From assembly GCA_026391945.1 (NCBI GenBank), contig JAPLDA010000070.1, forward strand, positions 1-64,000: a DNA stretch of 64,000 nt, in the 5' to 3' direction. The notes under the pieces were generated by a model. That model had not been told where the DNA came from, searched no databases, and worked only from the letters and a program-made list of their open reading frames with translations. Shown one piece after another: positions 7,433 through 30,307 of the stretch. Within the stretch, counting starts at the first letter, position 1. Each line of letters starts with the position of its first letter. This DNA is from Bacteroidota bacterium (lineage in GTDB: Bacteria > Bacteroidota > Bacteroidia > AKYH767-A > 2013-40CM-41-45). A program made the translations under genes and the position numbers.

Positions 7433-8436
7433 TTTAATTTTTCTCTCGTGTGACGGATGAAGTTCAACATGGACAGGTAAAAACCATCCGTCAGTTTTTC
7501 ATGAATGGGTGAGGGAATGGAACCACTCAGCCACCTGGCTAATCGAAACGGGTAAAACCGGGAGGATGCAATCCATCTTCTCTTCCATCCCGGTATTTCA
7601 GTCACCCAGTTTTCTCTCAGCGATGAAACAACATCCATCACCTGCCACTCTTCATTTGTAAAATCTTTTTGCGACTCTGCAAAACTATCCTTTTTATAAA
7701 TGCCTCTTTTGTACTTCGCCTGGAAATACAATGCAGGCAGCAACATGAATTCACTCAGCAGATTTTTCAGTCCATAAACATCTGAAGGATAATTTTTCCT
7801 CACCAGTTTTTTTTCAATGGCAGCGCACAGGTTTAAGCATGGCGACAGGTAATCCTGCTTTTCCCTGATCTTAAAATTCAGTTCAGCACCACGATCCGGC
7901 AAAACAGACTTTGCATGCCTGAACAATTCCGAAGGAAAATAAGTTTCCGGGTAATCATTGAAATCTTTTTCCGTCATCACAAACCAGCCATGATGCTGCA
8001 ACGGATCCATCTCCAGCATAAACCTCCTCGCTTTGCTGAGCATACAGGCCGCCTGTGCCAGTTTAAAACGATCAGAGAAAATTTCATTTTTCAGAATGAC
8101 GAGTGCATCGAAATCGCTGTACTGAATCTCATCACCGGTTCCGATACTTCCATGAATGTAAACTCCCGCAATAAAATCTCCTGCATTCGATTGAAGGAAT
8201 GACTCCATGCGACTTACGTGTTCATTCTTTCCCTGGTATGCATCCACCGAAATTTCCAGTGAACCCATAGGGTTTCCGCGTTCCGTTTTTTCTTTTTGAA
8301 AATAAGACTGGATGATCTTTGCATTTTTTTCAAAGACAAAACGTGGAGAAAAAAGAAATAAGAATTTATCAGGAGGATAAAGGCATCCTTCGTTGATGTA
8401 TTTCTGCAGGTCATATCTTGAATTTATTTCGCTCAC
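7429..8436 (-). CDS. Nucleotidyltransferase-fold protein
   Basis: 335 residues. Around residues 90-115 the sequence GVYIHGSIGTGDEIQYSDFD followed by ALVIL matches the GS-x(n)-SDxD core of minimal nucleotidyltransferases, with both metal-binding Asp positions plausible. The C-terminal half (FMLLPALYFQAKY) may be a helical bundle of the kind attached to such domains in antibiotic nucleotidyltransferases. It precedes and overlaps a second nucleotidyltransferase-fold gene by four bases. The function is unknown. Presence inside a glycan operon suggests action on a sugar, lipid carrier or export component, but that is inference. Confidence 0.65.
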   Translation of the reverse strand: MSEINSRYDLQKYINEGCLYPPDKFLFLFSPRFVFEKNAKIIQSYFQKEKTERGNPMGSLEISVDAYQGKNEHVSRMESFLQSNAGDFIAGVYIHGSIGTGDEIQYSDFDALVILKNEIFSDRFKLAQAACMLSKARRFMLEMDPLQHHGWFVMTEKDFNDYPETYFPSELFRHAKSVLPDRGAELNFKIREKQDYLSPCLNLCAAIEKKLVRKNYPSDVYGLKNLLSEFMLLPALYFQAKYKRGIYKKDSFAESQKDFTNEEWQVMDVVSSLRENWVTEIPGWKRRWIASSRFYPFRLARWLSGSIPSPIHEKLTDGFYLSMLNFIRHTREKLK

Positions 8437-8445
8437 CTGGCAGGA

Positions 8446-9612
8446 TTAAAGTCCGGTTAAAAAATGTACGAGATGCTCCGCCCGTTTTTCGAATGAGAAC
8501 TGCTGTACGTCATCAAATGCTTTCTCCGCAAGCTTTTTCGACATGCCGGTATTTTCAACAGCCTGTTTGATTCCTGCTGCAAGAGAAACGGGATTGTCCG
8601 GTTCCACCATCACGGCATTCGATGAATTTATGAGGTCATGCGTAGCCGGAAAATCAGGTGTTACGATGGGGTTGTGCGAAAACATGTATTCCACCAGCTT
8701 CTGCGGGAAGTTGTATTCCACGATGTGATCTGCTTTCGTATAATAGGAGATCAGCACATCGGCCGCCAGCTGGTAATAACTGATGAAGGTTGAATCGTTG
8801 AGAAAACCCGGGAAGGAAACATTTGCTATTTTCCTGTTCCTGCAAAGTTCTTTAAAATAAACCACGGCTTCTTCTTTTCCGCCGGTGAGAATAAAATTAT
8901 ACTGCGGCAACAATTCAGCGGCATCCAGGATGTAATCCAGTTCTTTGATTCCCTTTCCCAGCTTGCCTGTATAAACCGCCAGTGGTTTTGCACCATCAAA
9001 ATTAATTTTCCGTCTTGCTTCCGTTTTGCTGCAGGAATAATTCGCCGCCGAAACCGGTGCAACCAGGCGATCGATCCTCGATTCAGCAACGAAATATTTT
9101 TGCACCAGTTTTGTTTTTGCAGAAGGAGTGGTGACGAGTATGCCGTCGTAATTCCTGTACATCCACCGGTTCAATTTTCCACCCTTTACTTCATGTACCG
9201 TATTCACAATTTTAACGCGGCAAAATCTTCCAAGTATTTTTTTAATCAGCATCAACGGCAACGCTGATTTATTATCACGTGTGATGACGCAAACATCACG
9301 GGTCTTTCCGTGGTTCTCAAAAATAATTTTCACTGAACTAAAAAAAAAGGAAATAAGCAACATCGTCACCTGCCACCATCTTGCACTGTCATTATTCAAA
9401 GGAGTTTTCAGCATCCTGAATTTCAGGTCATGGTTAATGCCATAGCTTGCTGCAACCTCTTTTTCCTCCAGGTTCTCCTTCATGTAATAGTACGGATGAA
9501 TGAGCGTGACATCGGCACCGGTGCCGGCAAGCAAGTCGCAGAAGCGCACGTCAAAAATCCGGTTGGTTGTCGGGCGGAGCAGGCAAAACGGTGAGATAAA
9601 AAAATACTTCAT
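8446..9612 (-). CDS. Glycosyltransferase family 4
   Basis: 388 residues. The N-terminus (MKYFFISPFCLLRPTTNRIFD) differs from the usual glycine-loop GT4 start, but the middle and C-terminus are typical: YDGILVTTPSAKTKLV, the interdomain strand LAVYTGKLGKGIKELDYIL, FILTGGKEE, VSFPGFLND and the donor-site stretch EYNFPQKLVEYMFSHNPIV. Cytoplasmic sugar transferase of the repeat-unit pathway; donor unknown. It lies 14 bases downstream of the Wzx-like gene. Confidence 0.82.
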   Translation of the reverse strand: MKYFFISPFCLLRPTTNRIFDVRFCDLLAGTGADVTLIHPYYYMKENLEEKEVAASYGINHDLKFRMLKTPLNNDSARWWQVTMLLISFFFSSVKIIFENHGKTRDVCVITRDNKSALPLMLIKKILGRFCRVKIVNTVHEVKGGKLNRWMYRNYDGILVTTPSAKTKLVQKYFVAESRIDRLVAPVSAANYSCSKTEARRKINFDGAKPLAVYTGKLGKGIKELDYILDAAELLPQYNFILTGGKEEAVVYFKELCRNRKIANVSFPGFLNDSTFISYYQLAADVLISYYTKADHIVEYNFPQKLVEYMFSHNPIVTPDFPATHDLINSSNAVMVEPDNPVSLAAGIKQAVENTGMSKKLAEKAFDDVQQFSFEKRAEHLVHFLTGL

Positions 9613-9626
9613 CGGTACTTTACAAT

Positions 9627-10982
9627 TTAGCTGATGACCGGACCGGTTGTTTTCATTTCCTGGTATGCCCTGAAAATAAAAATCGTATTGATGACCAGGT
9701 TAACACAGAGCAGCGCAAGACCCATTCCGGCTGCATGCATCTGTGGAACTGCAAAATAGGCAATTGTCGCCCCGACAACAATTGCAATCATGTAAACTTT
9801 TAAACGAAGTTTTACAAGACCGAGGCTGATGATGAGCGGCAACGACCAGAAGGTAACGGAGCTGAACACCGCACTCAGCAGCAGGAATAAGAACGGGTAT
9901 ACGGCGCCCAGGTATTCTTTTCCGAAGATGGTAACAAACATCCATTCCTTCAGGAAAAAAGTAATGATGATGAAAACGACGGATGGGATGGTTGCAATGA
10001 GTGTTATTTTTCCCAGCATTTTTTTGGTCTCCAAGAATTTTTTTTCTGCCAGCAGTTTGGAGAATTGCGGGAAGATGGATTGCATCAGCGGATCCGTGGG
10101 TGCGAGGATGGCGTAACCGATTTTTTTGGCTACGGAATAAATCCCCACCTGCGAAGGCCCGGCGAGAATACCGAGTAACAATACGTCACCCTGCCCCATC
10201 AGTGACTTCAGTGAATTCCCCAGAGAATTCCCGATGACAAATGTTTTCATTTCTCCGATTTCATTTTTCACCAGGTCATATCCCGCCCGGATATACGGAC
10301 GAAATTCATGGCGCAGTTCCCAAAAAGCCATCCAGTTGCAGATCACTCCGTTCAGGAAACAGGCCATGATCATCGTGATAAAAAAAACATCCAGGTTCTT
10401 CGGGTACAGTGAAACGGCCGTAACAACTAAAACCGTTTCCACGATATCCATGGTGATCTGTATGATTGAGTTCAGCTTGAACTTAAAATACAACCGGAGA
10501 ATTCCGTTGCTGATGGAATTAAAATATTTGGTGCCGGAAGCTACTGCATAAAACATGATGTACATTTCCAATCCGGCTTTATGAACGAATGTTGAATAAG
10601 CAAGAATGGTGAGAAGCACCACGGTGACAATGGAAATGAGCACCATCACGCCGCTCACTTTCAGGCAAAGCTTCACCAGCGCAACCAGTTTATCAATGCG
10701 TTGCTCGTTGTGGTAAGCCGCACCGAATTTGATGATGGCCGTGCCGAGGTTCAGGTTCAGGAACTCCTGCACGATGCCGACAAATGCCACCACGATGACG
10801 TACGAACCAAATGTCTTCGCTCCCAATCCGCGCGCAATGATGATGGAGCGGATGATGTTGAGCCCGATTCCTGCGAAGTTGGAAAAGAAAACCCATGAAC
10901 TGTTCCGGAACAGGGTTTTGGATTCCCTGTCAAACTTTTTCCAGATACCGGACTTCGCTTTTCCAATCAGCCTTTCAACCAT
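9627..10982 (-). CDS. Oligosaccharide flippase (Wzx/MATE-like)
   Basis: 451 residues with about twelve to fourteen predicted transmembrane helices. The N-terminal part (SSWVFFSNFAGIGLNIIRS then ARGLGAKTFGSYVI) is the conserved start of the polysaccharide biosynthesis/Wzx family, and the middle carries GPSQVGIYSVAKKIGY, also typical. The inferred role is moving undecaprenyl-pyrophosphate-linked repeat units across the inner membrane for polymerisation by the Wzy-like protein. It sits 12 bases after the large membrane-protein gene, consistent with one transcript. Confidence 0.9.
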   Translation of the reverse strand: MVERLIGKAKSGIWKKFDRESKTLFRNSSWVFFSNFAGIGLNIIRSIIIARGLGAKTFGSYVIVVAFVGIVQEFLNLNLGTAIIKFGAAYHNEQRIDKLVALVKLCLKVSGVMVLISIVTVVLLTILAYSTFVHKAGLEMYIMFYAVASGTKYFNSISNGILRLYFKFKLNSIIQITMDIVETVLVVTAVSLYPKNLDVFFITMIMACFLNGVICNWMAFWELRHEFRPYIRAGYDLVKNEIGEMKTFVIGNSLGNSLKSLMGQGDVLLLGILAGPSQVGIYSVAKKIGYAILAPTDPLMQSIFPQFSKLLAEKKFLETKKMLGKITLIATIPSVVFIIITFFLKEWMFVTIFGKEYLGAVYPFLFLLLSAVFSSVTFWSLPLIISLGLVKLRLKVYMIAIVVGATIAYFAVPQMHAAGMGLALLCVNLVINTIFIFRAYQEMKTTGPVIS

Positions 10983-10994
10983 TTAATCTTCTCA

Positions 10995-13004
10995 TTATTT
11001 TTTCAATTTAAAAACATCAACCTGGTTATTAGTGAATACAGGAGTGATCAGTGATGAATCGGTACAAGCCATGCTTCCGCCTTTCCATTTATCAAACACG
11101 ATGTAATCGATGTTCAGTTCATTGGAAATCCGTTTCAAATCACCCGGCGAAGCGGAAGAGAAAAGCGTATCGAGTTTTGATTTTTTCATTTCGTAATCCG
11201 GGAAATACTGCTTTCCTCCAACCACCACGGCGCGTTCTGAATACACCGGAACAAAATCAAAATCATCCTTGTAATAATTTTCTTTCAGCTGAAACCTATT
11301 GTATGCAAGCAATGAATTCTGTTCCGTATTCTTCTTTAAATAATCCATGGCATCAAACCACTCTTTTGATAATCCCGAACTCTTCACGGGATTGATAACC
11401 GGCTGAAGCACCTGCAACGCGCCGCTTCCGGCCTGGATACCAATAAGGGTGATGGCCGTTGCTTTCAAAAAGAAATTTTTTGAAACCACGAGGAATTCAC
11501 TGATCACCAAAACCGAAACCACGCTCAGCAGGTACATGCCTGTTAAAATAAAATACAGCGCATTGTGCTGTCCTACTTTCGGCGTGACAAAAAATGAAAC
11601 CAGGATGCCGCCGAAGACTGAAAAAATAATGGTGGACGTCGCAAAGTCGTTTTTCAGAACTCCGCCTTTCATCTTTTTCACCAGATAAAATAATCGTACG
11701 CCGAAAATTCCGGCGATGTAAAAAGCAGTCAGCAAGGCCAGCACAACAGCAGTTTTGAGAGAAAGATCATGGAAAGAAAAAACATCACCGTGAAAATGAA
11801 GATAATTTTTTACTGCTTCCGACCTCATCACAGGATAGGCAAGATTCACATCCATTCCATCCGATGAATACGTACTGTGAGCAACGCCGCTCAGGAATTT
11901 ATTCACCAGGAAACCGGCGACAGCAGTACCGGCTGCAACCAGCACAAGACTTTTATTCTTTTCCCTGTTCAGCACCGATGCGGCCACCATTCCGCCTGCG
12001 AGGCATGCCCATGTTGAAATTTTATAACATGCCAGCGTGCTTGCTGAAACAACCAGCAACAACATGAGTTTCCAACTGATTTTTTCTTTTCCAGACCTGG
12101 CCAGTTCAGCGAGGATGACAAACATCACGAGGAATGAAATGGCCGCAGACGGACTGTTGTGCAGCCATTCAATGCTTTCAATCGTGAACACCGGTTGTTT
12201 ATGGATCACCAGTTTGATGACCTGGTTGAGCAGGTAAAAATCATCCAGCAACAGAACGGCGATGGCGCTGATCACTGCGATACGTTCCGATGCTTTCAAA
12301 GAAAGTGCGAGGTAATAAGCCGCCAGCGCCATGAAGAAAAAAGTGTACAACGGAAAAACAACCTGGTACAACGGAAGAATACCGATGTGGCTGGTCTTCA
12401 TCACCAGCGCCATCAGCAGGTAAACAAAATGATGGTAGTTGATGGCTGCGGAACCGTAATTCATGTTCACGAGGAAGCCGTAGTTTTTCAATGCGACGAC
12501 CATGCTCATCAGGATGCCGGCATCGGTGTCGTGCTTGCTGTTGAAGGAGAATTTCCAGCTGATCATCTGGCTGAATTCGCGGAAGCTGCAGATCACCATC
12601 ACCACGGCGAGCAACAGGAACATCGATTGAACTTCTTTTTTTCCGGGAGGAGAAAAAGTAAAATTATTTTTCCTTATACGGATCACGAGCATCAACCCAA
12701 GCAATACGTTGAGTACAGAAATTACCAATGAAAACGATGCGTGCAGGTCAAGCCGGAACAACAGGTAATAGAGCAACGGAACCAGCGCCAGCCCGATGAC
12801 ATTTCCAAACAAAACAAGGCGCAGAAAATTTTCAGACTTCCCTTCCGACAACGCCAGGATAAGGCTTCCCGGGATCTGAACAAACCACATTAAAGCAAAA
12901 AAAGCTGCAGTCACATGCAGCAAACTTTCTCTCCTGTACATCACAAAAAAGACGAGCAGCAGGACAGAAAATATTCCGTACAAAAATGTTTTCGAAAACT
13001 TCAT
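10995..13004 (-). CDS. Large polytopic membrane protein, GT-C-like
   Basis: 669 residues: roughly twelve to fourteen transmembrane helices over residues 1-510, then a soluble C-terminal domain of about 150 residues (NIDYIVFDKWKG near the end). A loop at about residues 161-168 reads KHDTDAGI. An acidic loop following the first helices is the general catalytic layout of GT-C glycosyltransferases that use lipid-phosphate sugars. No family could be assigned with certainty. It overlaps the wecE-like gene by four bases. It may add a side-branch sugar at the periplasmic face, or be a transporter or assembly factor. Confidence 0.6.
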   Translation of the reverse strand: MKFSKTFLYGIFSVLLLVFFVMYRRESLLHVTAAFFALMWFVQIPGSLILALSEGKSENFLRLVLFGNVIGLALVPLLYYLLFRLDLHASFSLVISVLNVLLGLMLVIRIRKNNFTFSPPGKKEVQSMFLLLAVVMVICSFREFSQMISWKFSFNSKHDTDAGILMSMVVALKNYGFLVNMNYGSAAINYHHFVYLLMALVMKTSHIGILPLYQVVFPLYTFFFMALAAYYLALSLKASERIAVISAIAVLLLDDFYLLNQVIKLVIHKQPVFTIESIEWLHNSPSAAISFLVMFVILAELARSGKEKISWKLMLLLVVSASTLACYKISTWACLAGGMVAASVLNREKNKSLVLVAAGTAVAGFLVNKFLSGVAHSTYSSDGMDVNLAYPVMRSEAVKNYLHFHGDVFSFHDLSLKTAVVLALLTAFYIAGIFGVRLFYLVKKMKGGVLKNDFATSTIIFSVFGGILVSFFVTPKVGQHNALYFILTGMYLLSVVSVLVISEFLVVSKNFFLKATAITLIGIQAGSGALQVLQPVINPVKSSGLSKEWFDAMDYLKKNTEQNSLLAYNRFQLKENYYKDDFDFVPVYSERAVVVGGKQYFPDYEMKKSKLDTLFSSASPGDLKRISNELNIDYIVFDKWKGGSMACTDSSLITPVFTNNQVDVFKLKK

Positions 13005-17178: not shown

Positions 17179-17885
17179 GATCCGGTGTGTGCTGTTTCAA
17201 AATTTTTCATGTACTTCATGGCATCCTTACCTGCATTGAAGAGGAGGTCGAGGATGCTCACTCCGTGTTCAAACGGAGGGAACAACTGTGGGTACTCCGG
17301 GTACCCTGAATAATCGAAATAATGAACCCTGATATTTTCTTTCGTGAACAGGTTTTCATCCATGTAATTTTTTGCTGCCGGCCCGGTAAAATAATCCGTG
17401 GCACCGCGCTGAACACAAAGATCCACCAGCCGTTCTGTTTTTCCTTCTGCCAATGTAAATTCATCTGAAAAAAATACGGGAGTCTGAATACCGAGCAACC
17501 CGCAAATGCCGCTGATGAACCGGTGATTGATTTTAGTCAGGTACGTTTCCGATGAACTCAGGTAAAGTTCTTCCAGCACGTCTTTCACTTCCTTGAAACA
17601 TGGCGCTTTGCTGTAGTTGTGCACCAGCACCGACCAATGGTTTTTCGCCCAGTCTTTTTCCGAGACCACGGTTTCATTGATCTTCTGAAAAAATTTTCCT
17701 TTCACTTCAACGGGTATCGACAACCACTTCAGTCCTTCTTTTGTTTTGACCAGGTTGCGGTTCCTCCAATCGCGTTTGGTGTACTGCATGTCATCGTAAA
17801 TGATGAATTCATCCACCATGCGGATGGAATCAAAGTATCCTTTCCACGGGATGTAATTGGACTGCGTGATGAGTATTTTTTTCAT
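17175..17885 (-). CDS. WbqC family protein
   Basis: 236 residues. The start ILITQSNYIPWKGYFDSIRM, the segment YDDMQYTKRDWRNRN and the late GYPEYPQLFPPFEHGVSILD are signatures of the WbqC (PF08889) family found in O-antigen and capsule clusters. The biochemical role of this family is not established as far as I know; it is often next to amino-sugar aminotransferases and acyl-transfer genes, as here. The last four bases overlap the methyltransferase start. Confidence 0.9.
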   Translation of the reverse strand: MKKILITQSNYIPWKGYFDSIRMVDEFIIYDDMQYTKRDWRNRNLVKTKEGLKWLSIPVEVKGKFFQKINETVVSEKDWAKNHWSVLVHNYSKAPCFKEVKDVLEELYLSSSETYLTKINHRFISGICGLLGIQTPVFFSDEFTLAEGKTERLVDLCVQRGATDYFTGPAAKNYMDENLFTKENIRVHYFDYSGYPEYPQLFPPFEHGVSILDLLFNAGKDAMKYMKNFETAHTGS

Positions 17886-25133: not shown

Positions 25134-26366
25134 TTAATAGTTGTCATTTTCGAAATCGTCATATTCTGAATTGTGAAGTCCTAAAAGAAACTCCTGAACC
25201 AATGATCTATTCAGAGAATTAATGGCATTGGGATTAAGATAAACGTAAGATTTTACATTTGTCTGGTTGGGTTCTTTACTAAGAATTGTGTTGTCTTCAA
25301 GGAAAATAATTCCTGACAAGAAATTTGATATTTGATAAATCGTCTGACTGCCTGTAAATTTCGAATTAAATGTTTTGAATAGTGTGCTGTCATGTTTGTA
25401 TTGACAGAAAACCCTTCTTGAAAGAGATCGATACAACTTTATGTTGCTGTTAGAAAAGCTTGATACGATACCATTATACCAGGGAAAAATAACATAAACC
25501 ATTAATGAAGGATTGTCCTTAACGAACTGATCAGCATTTTTGAAAACCATCTGGTGATAATTTTCAGCATGTCTGAATGGATTGTGCGTTCTTTCAGCCG
25601 CTAGAACTCCTCTACCCCACAAAATTCTGAAGTTAAGATTGCTCACAACAGAACTTTTTAAGTATGTGGTTTTGTTTGTTGGAATAATACCGGTTATCAA
25701 TTCATTCCGTAATGCAGCAATATTGGGTGCAATTTCATCAACTGAAATTGCTAAATCATATTCAGCGGAAATTCGAAAGTCATCTCTGTTAAAATGTTGA
25801 TGTAGTTCTTTATAGAGTTTTTCAAATATCTCACTCACATTGTCTTTAAAAACTTTAAAGTCAAGATAAGTAGGCGTTTCTTCTATAAAGCCGTCAAGGT
25901 TTGCAGCGGCCTTACCTAGTTCCAACGCAAAAGTCCGTGATTTATCAATTGTTTCATTTGGTTTAATGGGTGTATGAATATTCGTTTTGTGATTTAAAAT
26001 ATCTTGATTTAAATGGTCAAATGCTGATAATTCTGCAAATGCTCCTTCCCAATTCTTCTCACTTGCAATTTCATTTACTTGAGTAATTATTTCTTTCAAA
26101 TATGTCGGGTGCGTTGAGTAGATGTTTTTTAATCGGTTAAGTCGGGCTGTGAAATTATTTTTAAAGTCAAGGAACTCTGTCTGATTGTTTATTGCCCCGA
26201 TTACAGTATTAGTAACGTCTTTTGTAATGTCAAATTTGGTTGTTCCCACACCAAATATCGGATCTATTAACGCTGAATATGTTTGAAGTGGTGTCATTTT
26301 TTGTCCGCAAATATTATTAAAAAAATTTAGCAATTTCGGGTTCAAATTATTAATAAATGAATCCAA
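25134..26366 (-). CDS. Unrecognised 410-aa protein with possible PD-(D/E)XK nuclease core
   Basis: The first start in the frame is TTG at 26366; the first ATG is at 26297 (Met24). Residues 8-23 look protein-like, so the longer form may be real, but it would then overlap the divergent HTH gene by 10 bases. I do not recognise the family. A helix with Glu112 (GAFAELSAFDHL), then Asp158 (NLDGF) and D169-F-K171 (YLDFKVF), is the order and spacing of a PD-(D/E)XK nuclease active site. The flanks contain hydrophobic strands (LMVYVIFPWYNGI). It is AT-rich and sits beside HTH and XRE/ImmA genes, so a defence or mobile-element role is conceivable; this is inference only. Confidence 0.55.
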   Translation of the reverse strand: MDSFINNLNPKLLNFFNNICGQKMTPLQTYSALIDPIFGVGTTKFDITKDVTNTVIGAINNQTEFLDFKNNFTARLNRLKNIYSTHPTYLKEIITQVNEIASEKNWEGAFAELSAFDHLNQDILNHKTNIHTPIKPNETIDKSRTFALELGKAAANLDGFIEETPTYLDFKVFKDNVSEIFEKLYKELHQHFNRDDFRISAEYDLAISVDEIAPNIAALRNELITGIIPTNKTTYLKSSVVSNLNFRILWGRGVLAAERTHNPFRHAENYHQMVFKNADQFVKDNPSLMVYVIFPWYNGIVSSFSNSNIKLYRSLSRRVFCQYKHDSTLFKTFNSKFTGSQTIYQISNFLSGIIFLEDNTILSKEPNQTNVKSYVYLNPNAINSLNRSLVQEFLLGLHNSEYDDFENDNY

Positions 26367-26653
26367 ACGACATTGCCACGAAGCAGGACATCAACCAACT
26401 TCACGATAAATTGAGCCTTCTCTTGGAAGAAATTGCAAAAATTAAATCCCCTGTTGAAAATCCAGCCCAAGAAAAGTATCTCACAAGCAGAGAAGTCAGT
26501 GAAACTTATAAAATCAGCAAAAGCCACCTCACCGATCTGCGAACTGAAGGTAAGATACCATATTCAAAACCTTTTGGAGTATTGCTTTATCCAAAATCAG
26601 AAATTGAAAAAATTATAAAGAATAATTGGCGTGGAATTATAATAGACAATTGA
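26357..26653 (+). CDS. Excisionase/MerR-type helix-turn-helix protein
   Basis: 98 residues. An N-terminal amphipathic helix (about 1-30) precedes a winged-helix DNA-binding segment: YLTSREVSETYKISKSHLTD, then LRTEGKIPYSKPFGVLLYPKSEIEKII. This is the HTH_17/excisionase pattern common in Bacteroidota mobile elements. It is transcribed away from the 410-residue gene, with 5' ends meeting or overlapping, so it may regulate that gene. No integrase or replication gene adjoins it, so excision itself is unsupported. Confidence 0.72.
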   Translation: MNPNDIATKQDINQLHDKLSLLLEEIAKIKSPVENPAQEKYLTSREVSETYKISKSHLTDLRTEGKIPYSKPFGVLLYPKSEIEKIIKNNWRGIIIDN

Positions 26654-26677: not shown

Positions 26678-27202
26678 CTATTGTAGTTCTGTTATAACGT
26701 TTGAGATTCTTATTGACATGGCGGCTACACTCACATTAAAAGTTTTTGCCAACTCAACGATCATGCTATCATCAAGGGACTTAATTTTTTTCGCTTTTAT
26801 CTCTTTCTTTAAAAATGAGACAGGCATTAAAATAGCTGCTGCAAAAGAATTTGCCTGTTGCTCTAGTTTATCTTCGCCAGTATGGGAGTTCTGATCCCTG
26901 TAAAGAATTACTGGAATATTTTTATCGACAAAAAGTTCATTTTTTGATTTATGTAATTCATAATGCCCCAACTCATGAGCTATGGTAAAGCGTTGGCGGA
27001 CTTCAGGGTGTCTTGTATTATAGCCAATAGTGCTTGTGTCACCTTCGATCACCAAGACTCCCGAAATTTCCTCTCCCATATCATAAGGTTTAAGCTTAAG
27101 TCCACGTGCAAGAGCAATTTCATCAATTGCAATCGGTAAAGAATTAATTTTACAGGATCTTAAAATTTCTGTGGTTTTTTCTTCTATAATTTCATTATAC
27201 AT
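26678..27202 (-). CDS. ImmA/IrrE family metallo-endopeptidase
   Basis: 174 residues. The zinc motif is HELGH at residues 76-80 (FTIAHELGHYELH), and Glu114 in KLEQQANSFAAAILMP is the third ligand position typical of the family. It starts 8 bases after the XRE repressor gene. Known pairs work by ImmA cleaving or relieving the partner repressor after a DNA-damage or other signal, turning on a mobile element or toxin genes. A similar relation is inferred here. Confidence 0.9.
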   Translation of the reverse strand: MYNEIIEEKTTEILRSCKINSLPIAIDEIALARGLKLKPYDMGEEISGVLVIEGDTSTIGYNTRHPEVRQRFTIAHELGHYELHKSKNELFVDKNIPVILYRDQNSHTGEDKLEQQANSFAAAILMPVSFLKKEIKAKKIKSLDDSMIVELAKTFNVSVAAMSIRISNVITELQ

Positions 27203-27210
27203 GGTACTCT

Positions 27211-27555
27211 TTATTTAGGAGTTTTTACATCAAATAAAAAACGATTCATTGTCTCTATTGCTTTCGAATCGTTACCAAATTGTGTATCAATTGTTTTTTT
27301 CCAGTCAGGTCGTATTTCGTCTGATCTAATAAGCTTAGGAACTAATGCTGTGACGGTAACATTTAAATGATTTGCAATTTCACATAGTAAATAAATTGAA
27401 GGTTGTTGTCGGCCCTTCTCTATGTTAATCATGCTCGTTCTACTTAAAGAAATAAGCGAGGCAAGAGATTCCTGCTTTAGTCCGGCTTTTTTACGATGTT
27501 TCGTGATTCTCTTACCGAGCTCTAAGTAAAACGTTCTTTTTTCTTCCTTATCCAT
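27211..27555 (-). CDS. XRE-family repressor paired with ImmA
   Basis: 114 residues from the ATG at 27555; a TTG two codons upstream (27561) is an alternative. The HTH is LGKRITKHRKKAGLKQESLA then SLISLSRTSMINIEKGRQQP, the classic Cro/C1 pattern. The C-terminal 45 residues (PDWKKTIDTQFGND and on) may be the ImmA-sensitive region. A strong promoter lies directly upstream with a -7 box only 8 bases from the ATG, and the -33 box sits inside an inverted repeat, so autoregulation is likely. Confidence 0.88.
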   Translation of the reverse strand: MDKEEKRTFYLELGKRITKHRKKAGLKQESLASLISLSRTSMINIEKGRQQPSIYLLCEIANHLNVTVTALVPKLIRSDEIRPDWKKTIDTQFGNDSKAIETMNRFLFDVKTPK

Positions 27556-27563
27556 TGGCAATG

Positions 27564-27674: not shown

Positions 27675-27716
27675 TATTGAAAGAATCTCATGACACAATA
27701 TAACATGCCTATGAAA

Positions 27717-27742
27717 TAAAAAAACCGGTCCAAAAGGACCGG
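27717..27742 (-). terminator. Hairpin plus T-run, minus-strand terminator
   Basis: CCGGTCC (27725-27731), loop AAAA, GGACCGG (27736-27742) form a perfect 7-bp stem. On the minus strand it is followed by seven Ts (27724-27718). That implies a minus-strand transcript arriving from about 27.75-27.95 kb, where no convincing gene is seen; a small RNA is possible. In the plus-strand RNA the same hairpin lacks a U-run. Confidence 0.55.
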
Positions 27743-27994
27743 CTGAAATTGGATAAAATTTCGAATTCAGTTTTGAGAGCCCGAATTCGGATGCAAGTAA
27801 CTTCATTTTTGCCAAATTCCAATGACTTTTCGGCCACCCTTTCCGGTTCATCGACCAAAGACCTGAATTCACGTTTTGATTACATTAAGACGTGCGCTAA
27901 AATTCTTGTAAATCTTTCATGTTTCTCATAGTTGCAATTTTGAATCGGCATTGGCGACCTCGCTCAAAAAAGCAAGCATTAAAAAATATAAAAA

Positions 27995-28240
27995 ATGAAA
28001 AAAGAAAATAAAACTCTTGAAGTCATAATCGAAGGTAATGCCTTCCAAATTGACAAGCAGTATGTTTCCGGGGCTGAAATCCGTGCACTTGGAAAGATTG
28101 CTCCTGACAATGAATTATTCCTCGCTATTAAAGAGCCCTGGGAAGATGAACTAATTAAAGATTCCGATCAGGTGGATCTGGCCAGGCCTGGAATTGAGCA
28201 CTTCTTTTCACCCGGGAGGTTTACGAAAATGAATTATTAG
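27995..28240 (+). CDS. Small multiubiquitin-domain (ubiquitin-like) protein
   Basis: 81 residues. LEVIIEGNAFQIDKQYVSGA begins a beta-grasp-like pattern, followed by EIRALGKI, ELFLAI, a KEPWEDELI loop and VDLARPGIEHFF, which resembles the conserved end of the bacterial Multi_ubiq family (PF14452). Only one copy of the domain is present. No E1, E2 or JAB-peptidase partner gene is visible. The last residues (SPGRFTKMNY) depart from the family just where the next reading frame begins, suggesting the 3' end was altered by a recombination event. The family is known from bacterial ubiquitin-like systems; a conjugation role here is unsupported. Confidence 0.65.
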   Translation: MKKENKTLEVIIEGNAFQIDKQYVSGAEIRALGKIAPDNELFLAIKEPWEDELIKDSDQVDLARPGIEHFFSPGRFTKMNY

Positions 28241-29499
28241 ACTTTACCTCAACAGTCAATTTAAAGACTGGAGAGATAACTCCTCCCGGCAATCGGAAAC
28301 GAAAGAAGATTAAATACAAACCCAGGGAGGAGAAAACAGCAACCTACAAAGACTTAACTATTTCCTTAGTAAACGACACCTACATAAATTTACAGGGGAG
28401 TTATCATGAATACTTTTGCAACGGAAAGAACTACTCAGACTTCACTCTCCCCGATTTACTGACAGTTATCAAAGACCTCCACACTAAATTCAATTTTAAC
28501 CCCTTTTACGACCTCATTCATAACATTGAATTTGGAGTGAATGTCAAACTACCTTTTGACACTAAGACCTTTTTAAAGTCCATTGTGTCGTTTAAGGGCA
28601 AAGAGTACGAACTCAGGGAATATAAGGGGACAGGGTTTCTATTAAAATTCTCATTCAATCAGTACGAACTCAAAATTTACAATAAGGGGTTTCAATGCAA
28701 ACTCCCGGACAACCTTTTGAGGTTTGAGATTAAGGTTACCACAATGGAGTTTTTAAGGGCAAAGGGAATACACCTCCACACCTCCAAAGATTTACTCCTC
28801 CCTGACATTTATACACGTTTAGGAACTCTTTTAATAGACTTTTTTAACCAGTTAGTAATTTACGACCACTCCATTAAACTCAACAAACTCAAACCCCGGG
28901 AACAAAGAATACTCAGGGAGGGACAGAACCCGAAATACTGGAGTAACTTAAAAGACGTAAACCCTGAGAACTGCAAAAAAAAACTCAGACGTTTTAAGGA
29001 GTTAGTGTATAAACATGGGACACAAAGGAGACAGGAAACAGTTAGTAAGTTGATAACTGAGAAATGGAGAGAGCTGACAGAAACGACACCGGAAACCCGG
29101 AAAGAAATAGACAACTATTTACAATCTTTAGAAACAAAAACTTTCCCCGAAATAACCGACCTCCACAAAACAGACTTTCCCCAAAATAAGACTTCAAATA
29201 GTGTATTAGATACGGGAAACTTTATTTCCTCCTCAACTAAGGTTTTATCACAGTCAAAAGAGGGGGTAAACATAACAGTGGAGGAAAGGAAATTTTGTCT
29301 TTCATGTGGGAGGGATATTTCAAACCAAAAGACCGGGAGTAAGTTTTGCAGTGAAAGAATTTACGGGAGTGAGGGAAAGAAATGTAGAAACATAAACAGC
29401 AACCCCCGGAATAACTTTAAGAACCGGGAATGGAGAATTAAAAGTGGAGGACTACTCTTTGAGATTGACAGCTATTTAAGTAGTAATTTTATTCATTGA
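28198..29499 (+). pseudogene. 5'-truncated mobile-element gene, unrecognised family
   Basis: The frame is open from just after a stop at 28195 to 29499 (about 433 codons) and coding-like throughout (FTREVYENELLDFTSTVN and on). There is no ATG, GTG or TTG in frame before a GTG at 28537, so the natural start appears to be missing. The middle (YELKIYNKGF, LPDNLLRFEIKV, GIHLHTSKD with an HLH) loosely recalls rolling-circle replication proteins. The C-terminus has a cysteine cluster (FCLSCGRDI ... SKFCSE ... KKCRN) like a zinc finger. Codon use (many CTC, CCC, GGG) differs from the genes around it. A frameshift-made fusion with the upstream gene is the alternative. Confidence 0.55.
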
Positions 29500-29547: not shown

Positions 29548-29865
29548 ATGCCATTTAAAAAAGGAAAGTCAGGAAACGAAAACGGGAAACCCCGGGGAAC
29601 AAAGAACAAAACGGGAAAACAACTCAGGGAAACTATCTCAGACTTTCTCAGTGATAACTTTGAAAAGGTAGTGGGGGACTTTAATTCTCTCAAACCAAAA
29701 GACCGGGTTAAACTCTATTGTGACCTCCTCCAGTATGGACTACCTAAACTTTCAACAGTGAGTTTAGATAAGACAGAAAGTGTATCACACCCGATAATTA
29801 TAGACTGGACGGGACAGTCAAAAGAGGATATGTTAGAACTTGAAAGGCAAATAGAAAAGTTATGA
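29548..29865 (+). CDS. DUF5681-like small protein
   Basis: 105 residues. The basic N-terminus MPFKKGKSGNENGKPRGTKN resembles the DUF5681/phage-associated KKGxSGNPxGRPxGxKN motif, followed by a helical domain (LRETISDFLSDNFEKVV, VKLYCDLLQYGLPKLS). Such proteins often sit in prophages and small mobile elements, and some are annotated as terminase-small-subunit-like. It lies 48 bases after the truncated element gene and shares its codon style, so both likely belong to one element. Function unknown. Confidence 0.65.
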   Translation: MPFKKGKSGNENGKPRGTKNKTGKQLRETISDFLSDNFEKVVGDFNSLKPKDRVKLYCDLLQYGLPKLSTVSLDKTESVSHPIIIDWTGQSKEDMLELERQIEKL

Positions 29866-30170
29866 TAAACGGGAGCGCGAAGGTTTTTCCACTATCACTA
29901 CGCGCGCGAAGGGTTGAAAAAATATCAAACTATTTCAAACTAAAATAGTATTGTTTAGTTATGGCAAAGTGTCATGAAATGCGATAACCGGACAGAACCT
30001 CCTCCCGTAATTTACGATTGAATACGGTTAAGACTGAAAATAATTCTATCTAAAGTAGATTGAAATAGAACAACGAATGAGGAGGAGTTATTACATGAGT
30101 TTTCAAAGTCCCCCAAAAGGGGAAACTTGACTAAAACCGGGGGCAAGTGTCCCCCTCAGTGTCCCCTGTT
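29866..30170. other. Non-coding right end of the element with G/C hairpins and short repeats
   Basis: No supported gene in about 300 bases. Seen here: a G+C-rich patch with a CGCGCG run at about 29921, a purine-rich GGAGGAG (30081-30087) before an 11-codon frame at 30095-30130, a CCCC-AAAA-GGGG hairpin near 30111-30122, a GGGGG/CCCCC hairpin near 30139-30155, and direct repeats of AGTGTCCCC at 30146-30154 and 30158-30166. These could be an origin or junction of the element; no integrase site was identified. Confidence 0.4.
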
Positions 30171-30209
30171 AAAACAAAACCCCTGTAAGATATTATCTTA
30201 CAAGGGTTT
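30171..30209 (-). terminator. Rho-independent terminator of tRNA-Leu
   Basis: Arms 30195-30209 and 30177-30191 pair at 14 of 15 positions around a 3-base loop. On the minus strand the hairpin is followed by TTTTGTTTT. It starts 15 bases past the tRNA 3' end, so it ends the tRNA transcript. Confidence 0.85.
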
Positions 30210-30223
30210 GCCATTTTTCACTG

Positions 30224-30307
30224 TACCCAGAGCCGGAATCGAACCGGCACAACCGTTAAGTTATCGGTTTTTGAGACCGACGCGTCTACCAGTTCCGCCA
30301 TCCGGGC
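30224..30307 (-). tRNA. tRNA-Leu (CAA)
   Basis: 84 bases. Acceptor arms GCCCGGA and TCTGGGT (two G-T pairs), D-arm region with AACTGGTAGACGC, anticodon stem TCGGT/ACCGA around loop CTCAAAA (anticodon CAA), a long class II variable arm (about TAACTTAACGGTTG) and T-arm CCGGTTCGATTCCGG. The 3' CCA is not encoded (the discriminator A is followed by CAG). It borders the accessory island, a common integration-site context, but no second copy of its 3' end was found. Confidence 0.95.

Follow-up and report, generated by a model that had tools for sequence, protein, structure and literature searches.

A probable deletion join between a CapH/CapP-associated ubiquitin-like operon and a tRNA-Leu-integrated element in a Bacteroidota genome

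Of 544 Bub operons, 219 are accompanied by CapW or by CapH together with CapP (PMC13373217), and streptococcal integrative and mobilizable elements (IMEs) are known to carry Rep_trans-family relaxases (PMC7563843, PMC6499999). Here, we describe a locus at which the remains of a ubiquitin-like operon and those of a tRNA-integrated element directly adjoin. It lies in a 64,000-nucleotide stretch of a Bacteroidota genome (contig JAPLDA010000070.1, positions 1 to 64,000; assembly GCA_026391945.1), referred to below as the window. Positions 28211 to 28216 very probably represent a deletion join that connects a CapHP-ubiquitin operon with a tRNA-Leu-integrated element and that most simply arose in one event.

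Two genes truncated at the same point

An open reading frame of 81 amino acids on the forward strand (27995 to 28240) matches the Pfam family Multi_ubiq (PF14452) over residues 9 to 71, with an E value of 6.9e-11 that is above the curated cut-off. Full-length homologues are open frames of 159 to 233 amino acids with two or more ubiquitin-like (Ubl) domains, the second of which carries a conserved C-terminal tail ending in TDKS. Both the second domain and this tail are missing from the window gene. Bases 28010 to 28210 align with residues 14 to 80 of a 163-amino-acid homologue (genome G000, contig C19), and the homologous part of the protein stops at residue 72, base 28210. By its Multi_ubiq match and by comparison with homologues of 162 to 233 amino acids, the interval from 27995 to 28210 is the 5' portion of a multiubiquitin-type gene with two domains, of which only the first is retained. 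The last nine residues, PGRFTKMNY, have no match in any Ubl homologue examined and are DNA of the adjoining gene translated in the wrong frame; the first-pass annotation had rightly described a single-domain protein with an atypical tail. Shorter Ubl relatives at two loci (L114 and L117) match the second, tail-bearing domain and not the first.

At the loci of relatives, the intact Ubl gene overlaps an E1-like DUF6791-ThiF gene, and a DUF6527 gene is next. No E1 gene of this type was found anywhere in the genome of the window, and the same search was positive in four control genomes. At L031, in a genome of the same family, a Ubl operon at tRNA-Leu has an E1 gene that is broken into two frames (9553 to 10730), through either decay or sequencing error.

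A second frame, at -1 relative to the Ubl frame and overlapping it, is open from 28198 to 29496. The start-less open stretch of about 430 codons reported in the first pass is thus confirmed at 433 codons, with no ATG, GTG, or TTG upstream of the GTG at 28537. Such an open run is far beyond chance: when this stretch was simulated 500 times with a first-order Markov model, the longest open run was 78 codons at the median and never exceeded 254. The frame is 52% identical to an intact homologue over residues 7 to 428 (E value of 8e-126) and, like the Ubl frame, is genuine coding DNA. Five close homologues align from residue 7 of the window frame (position 28216) or nearby, and in four loci (L078, L079, L080, and L097), an ATG start codon lies 15 to 16 codons upstream of that residue. 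The N-terminal segment of the homologues begins with MFDF or MIDY and is absent from the window gene (28216 to 29499, forward strand), which is missing its start codon together with about 15 codons of the N terminus. In none of the homologues is the start at the position corresponding to 28537, and a start there would also cut off the invariant residues E111 and G113.

This truncated gene has no match at the sequence level in Pfam, NCBIfam, PHROG, or PDB. An AlphaFold2 model of the protein (pLDDT of 81.5) has as its top PDB matches 4cij, 4cwe, and 4cwc, all of which are rolling-circle replication initiators (E values of 1e-3 to 7e-3, probabilities of 0.99 to 1.00, TM scores of at most 0.49, and identities of 10 to 18%), and a search of viral models (BFVD) returned one Inoviridae Rep (E value of 5e-4). 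The predicted fold may thus be that of a rolling-circle replication initiator, from which we infer the name Rep. A phage collection gave one weak match (28.9%), and neither a plasmid collection nor viral contigs gave any.

The two homologies end at 28210 and begin at 28216, on the same strand and with a gap of at most 5 bp. The breakpoint is therefore narrowed to 28211 to 28216, within the approximate range of 28200 to 28225 proposed earlier, and the earlier reading that the 3' end of one gene and the 5' end of the other were lost at one point stands. No insertion sequence, target duplication, or third fragment was found between the two homologies. Against the deletion reading set out below, both frames are still free of stop codons, which implies that the event is recent or that some selection remains.

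The integrative element family and its remnant in the window

A genome scan recovered 29 initiator loci (L078 to L106), from which the layout of an integrative element of Bacteroidota, recurring in most of them, can be recognized: attL, integrase, a variable gene, HTH_17, p163, initiator, in some cases DUF5681, and attR. In most of these loci, a tyrosine integrase gene lies upstream of the initiator gene on the same strand, often with HTH_17 and p163 genes between them, and DUF5681 is only sometimes present. The elements insert at the 3' ends of tRNA or tmRNA genes; where such a gene was found, it mostly lay downstream in the opposite orientation, its 3' end toward the element. In the complete element at L024, a 24-nucleotide copy of the tRNA-Leu 3' end is present at 7988 to 8011 and at 17327 to 17350, with the integrase at 8187, the initiator at 11318, and DUF5681 at 12948. 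Attachment-site repeats are also present at L028, L098, L101, and L106, and at all five of these loci, short direct repeats 11 to 12 bp apart are found at both ends of the element. Such an arrangement is expected of integrase arm-type sites, which these paired repeats probably are. The element at L101 is intact, has 19-nucleotide att repeats, and occupies tRNA-Leu(CAA), the same tRNA as in the window. In intact relatives, attL and the integrase gene are located about 3.4 kb further upstream of the initiator.

One contig of 4,601 bp (RXKB01000048.1; L083), binned with a Dependentiae genome, carries the initiator, integrase, HTH_17, and p163 genes and has an exact terminal overlap of 53 bp. It is apparently a free circular form of the element family of about 4.55 kb.

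Of such an element, the window retains only the right-hand portion, namely, the initiator from about codon 15, DUF5681, the paired arm repeats, and tRNA-Leu(CAA). The DUF5681 gene is intact (29548 to 29865, forward strand; Pfam PF18932, E value of 4.3e-7) and lies in the same position as at L024, L025, and L028. The arm-type repeat pair, two copies of AGTGTCCCC 12 bp apart (30146 to 30166, forward strand), is followed by the tRNA-Leu(CAA) gene that provides the attachment site (30223 to 30307, reverse strand). The right end of the element lies at the 3' end of this tRNA gene, and the edge made up of arm sites and tRNA-Leu is still present at 30146 to 30241. To the right of the element, a tRNA-Leu-prs-L25-pth block is kept in relatives; the left flank is not. 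In the stretch from one relative (G005, L074), ARAGORN found no tRNA.

Intact elements have both ends, whereas the arm-site pair and the tRNA att core each occur as one copy genome-wide here, and no left-end att copy or left arm pair was found in the whole genome. No tyrosine integrase gene lies between the Ubl and Rep genes in the window, and p163 was not found in its genome by a search that was positive in three controls. Compared with intact elements, the window copy has thus lost attL and the integrase. Tentatively, and at somewhat less than even likelihood, we assign this right remnant to a widespread and undescribed family of Bacteroidota elements of about 4.5 to 12 kb with a tyrosine integrase and a new rolling-circle-initiator-like protein, perhaps forming free circles such as L083.

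Matches to the initiator were present in 14 of about 150 genomes (counting G139, in which the match covers only the C-terminal zinc-finger part) and in 4 of the 7 genomes with a Ubl gene. The Ubl gene and the initiator possibly co-occur across genomes, in counts that are uncorrected for genome size or relatedness.

The CapH/CapP pair and the DNA further upstream

Two genes on the reverse strand precede the Ubl gene. The first (26678 to 27202) encodes a CapP-like ImmA/IrrE metallopeptidase of the Peptidase_M78 family with its HELGH motif present (Pfam PF06114, E value of 4.9e-23; PADLOC capP, E value of 5e-35). The second (27211 to 27561) encodes a CapH-like XRE repressor and is divergent from the Ubl gene (Pfam HTH_3, E value of 6.2e-9); in PADLOC, HTH_VI scores better for this protein (1.9e-12) than capH does (1.7e-10). 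Intact Ubl operons likewise have XRE and M78 genes beside them, separate at L033 and fused into one protein at L034. Judged by profile matches and gene arrangement, the two genes fit an intact CapH/CapP-type regulator pair. A G+C-rich perfect hairpin between the CapH and Ubl genes, ccggtccaaaaggaccgg (27715 to 27750), is a candidate terminator or operator-like site.

Some integrative elements, such as ICEBs1, carry their own ImmR/ImmA. We do not favor this origin for the XRE/M78 pair, because the window ImmA and XRE proteins had no match within the 29 Rep loci, yet such genes adjoin the Ubl operons at L033 and L034.

Further upstream, a head-to-head gene pair occupies low-G+C DNA (25134 to 26653). 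One gene (25134 to 26366) encodes a protein of 387 to 410 amino acids whose weak NCBIfam match to the SidA family (E value of 2e-4) is far below the cut-off, and its partner (26357 to 26653) encodes an HTH_17 protein; the pair is probably another foreign remnant. Taking this HTH_17 gene as the element's own would place the Ubl block inside the element. We did not adopt this assignment, since its product and the HTH proteins encoded next to Rep in close relatives share only 26 to 28% identity, over the HTH core.

Deletion, its alternatives, and known systems

The first-pass annotation had read the junction as the edge of an inserted element. Its claim of a shared truncation point for the two genes holds; the insertion edge does not, because the true ends of the element lie elsewhere, at attL and the integrase (about 3.4 kb upstream in relatives) on one side and at the tRNA-Leu end (30146 to 30241) on the other. 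Positions 28211 to 28216 are an internal join. Moreover, an insertion by itself is unable to remove sequence from both partners, which a deletion can do.

Before the event, the left module would have consisted of CapP and CapH divergent from a gene with two Ubl domains, followed by the DUF6791-ThiF E1 and DUF6527 genes. The right module would have run from attL through the integrase, variable, HTH_17, p163, initiator, and DUF5681 genes to attR in the 3' end of tRNA-Leu(CAA). One deletion of about 5 kb or more would then have taken out the second Ubl domain with E1 and DUF6527 on the operon side and, on the element side, everything from attL and the integrase through to about codon 15 of the initiator; this size was estimated from L033 and L024 (about 0.25, 1.2, and 0.35 kb of operon and about 3.4 kb of element). 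This would leave, on the left, only a first Ubl domain that has neither its conserved tail nor an E1 and, on the right, an initiator deprived of its start codon and N-terminal MFDF segment. Plausibly, neither remnant is able to work, and the element would no longer be able to excise. As no available strain has the undeleted arrangement, the adjacency of the two modules can only be inferred. A genome of the same family (L031) makes the proposed neighborhood realistic, as it has a Ubl operon immediately at the 3' end of a tRNA-Leu gene.

Alternatively, the join may have formed in several steps, in which a single deletion or insertion truncated the element and the Ubl operon decayed on its own. 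The foreign gene pair (25134 to 26366 and 26357 to 26653) and the low G+C content from about 25 kb speak for a complex regional history. However, the cut at one point, the gap of at most 5 bp, the lack of an insertion sequence, target duplication, or third fragment, and the absence from the genome of the missing parts searched for (E1, p163, and the left att copy and arm pair) make one deletion the most economical explanation, and separate events seem unlikely. Somewhat less likely still is an assembly or chimeric-read artifact uniting two unlinked fragments. Speaking for it, the assembly is a draft in 114 contigs, and the junction was not found in any independent assembly, its exact 33-mer being absent from viral contigs. 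Nevertheless, any overlap shared by the parent sequences would be limited to about 5 bp, and assemblers need longer shared words than this to make a k-mer join. In addition, each of the two fragments and of their missing partners either occurs once in the genome or is absent from it. On its right, the locus runs on into the conserved tRNA-Leu-prs-L25-pth block, and the orientation and tRNA-proximal position fit a real locus.

It is also very unlikely that the joined Ubl-Rep sequence persists as a new, working gene controlled by CapH/CapP. A programmed -1 frameshift producing a functional Ubl-Rep fusion, the alternative raised in the first pass, can practically be dismissed: the Rep frame is at -1 and overlaps the Ubl frame, and both are open, but there is no X_XXY_YYZ slippery heptamer between 28151 and 28260 and no fused homologue among the 29 Rep or 13 Ubl loci, the Ubl tail is mere out-of-frame Rep DNA, and the fusion would be without both the Ubl tail and the Rep N terminus.

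With a single deletion as the preferred explanation, the finding is one of ordinary genome decay, and it offers a clear case of the mutual erosion by deletion that can affect defense operons and mobile elements when they are stacked at a single tRNA gene. It also carries a warning, in that the 81-amino-acid "single-domain ubiquitin" is a gene fragment and not a new modifier. The more interesting by-product is the element family itself; with its integrase, HTH_17, p163, and initiator genes and paired arm sites, it is poorly described and may merit a description of its own.

Among known systems, Multi_ubiq-DUF6791/ThiF-DUF6527 operons, which stand near the Bil/Bub group, have a first Multi_ubiq domain 45 to 51% identical to that of the window and likewise a CapH/CapP-type regulator pair upstream; the window differs in lacking the second domain, the tail, E1, and DUF6527. 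The CapH and CapP regulators have their counterpart in two genes, for an XRE repressor and an M78 peptidase, oriented divergently from the operon, although the operon putatively under their control is broken here. RepDE and the Geobacillus stearothermophilus Rep (4cwc and 4cij) are the best PDB fold matches of the initiator model, with weak fold scores (E value of about 1e-3, TM score of at most 0.49) and no match in sequence. IMEs and other small tRNA-integrating elements differ from the present family in that its initiator has no Pfam, NCBIfam, or PHROG match, but they have in common with it a tyrosine recombinase, HTH_17, a tRNA or tmRNA 3' target, att repeats, and an initiator-like protein.
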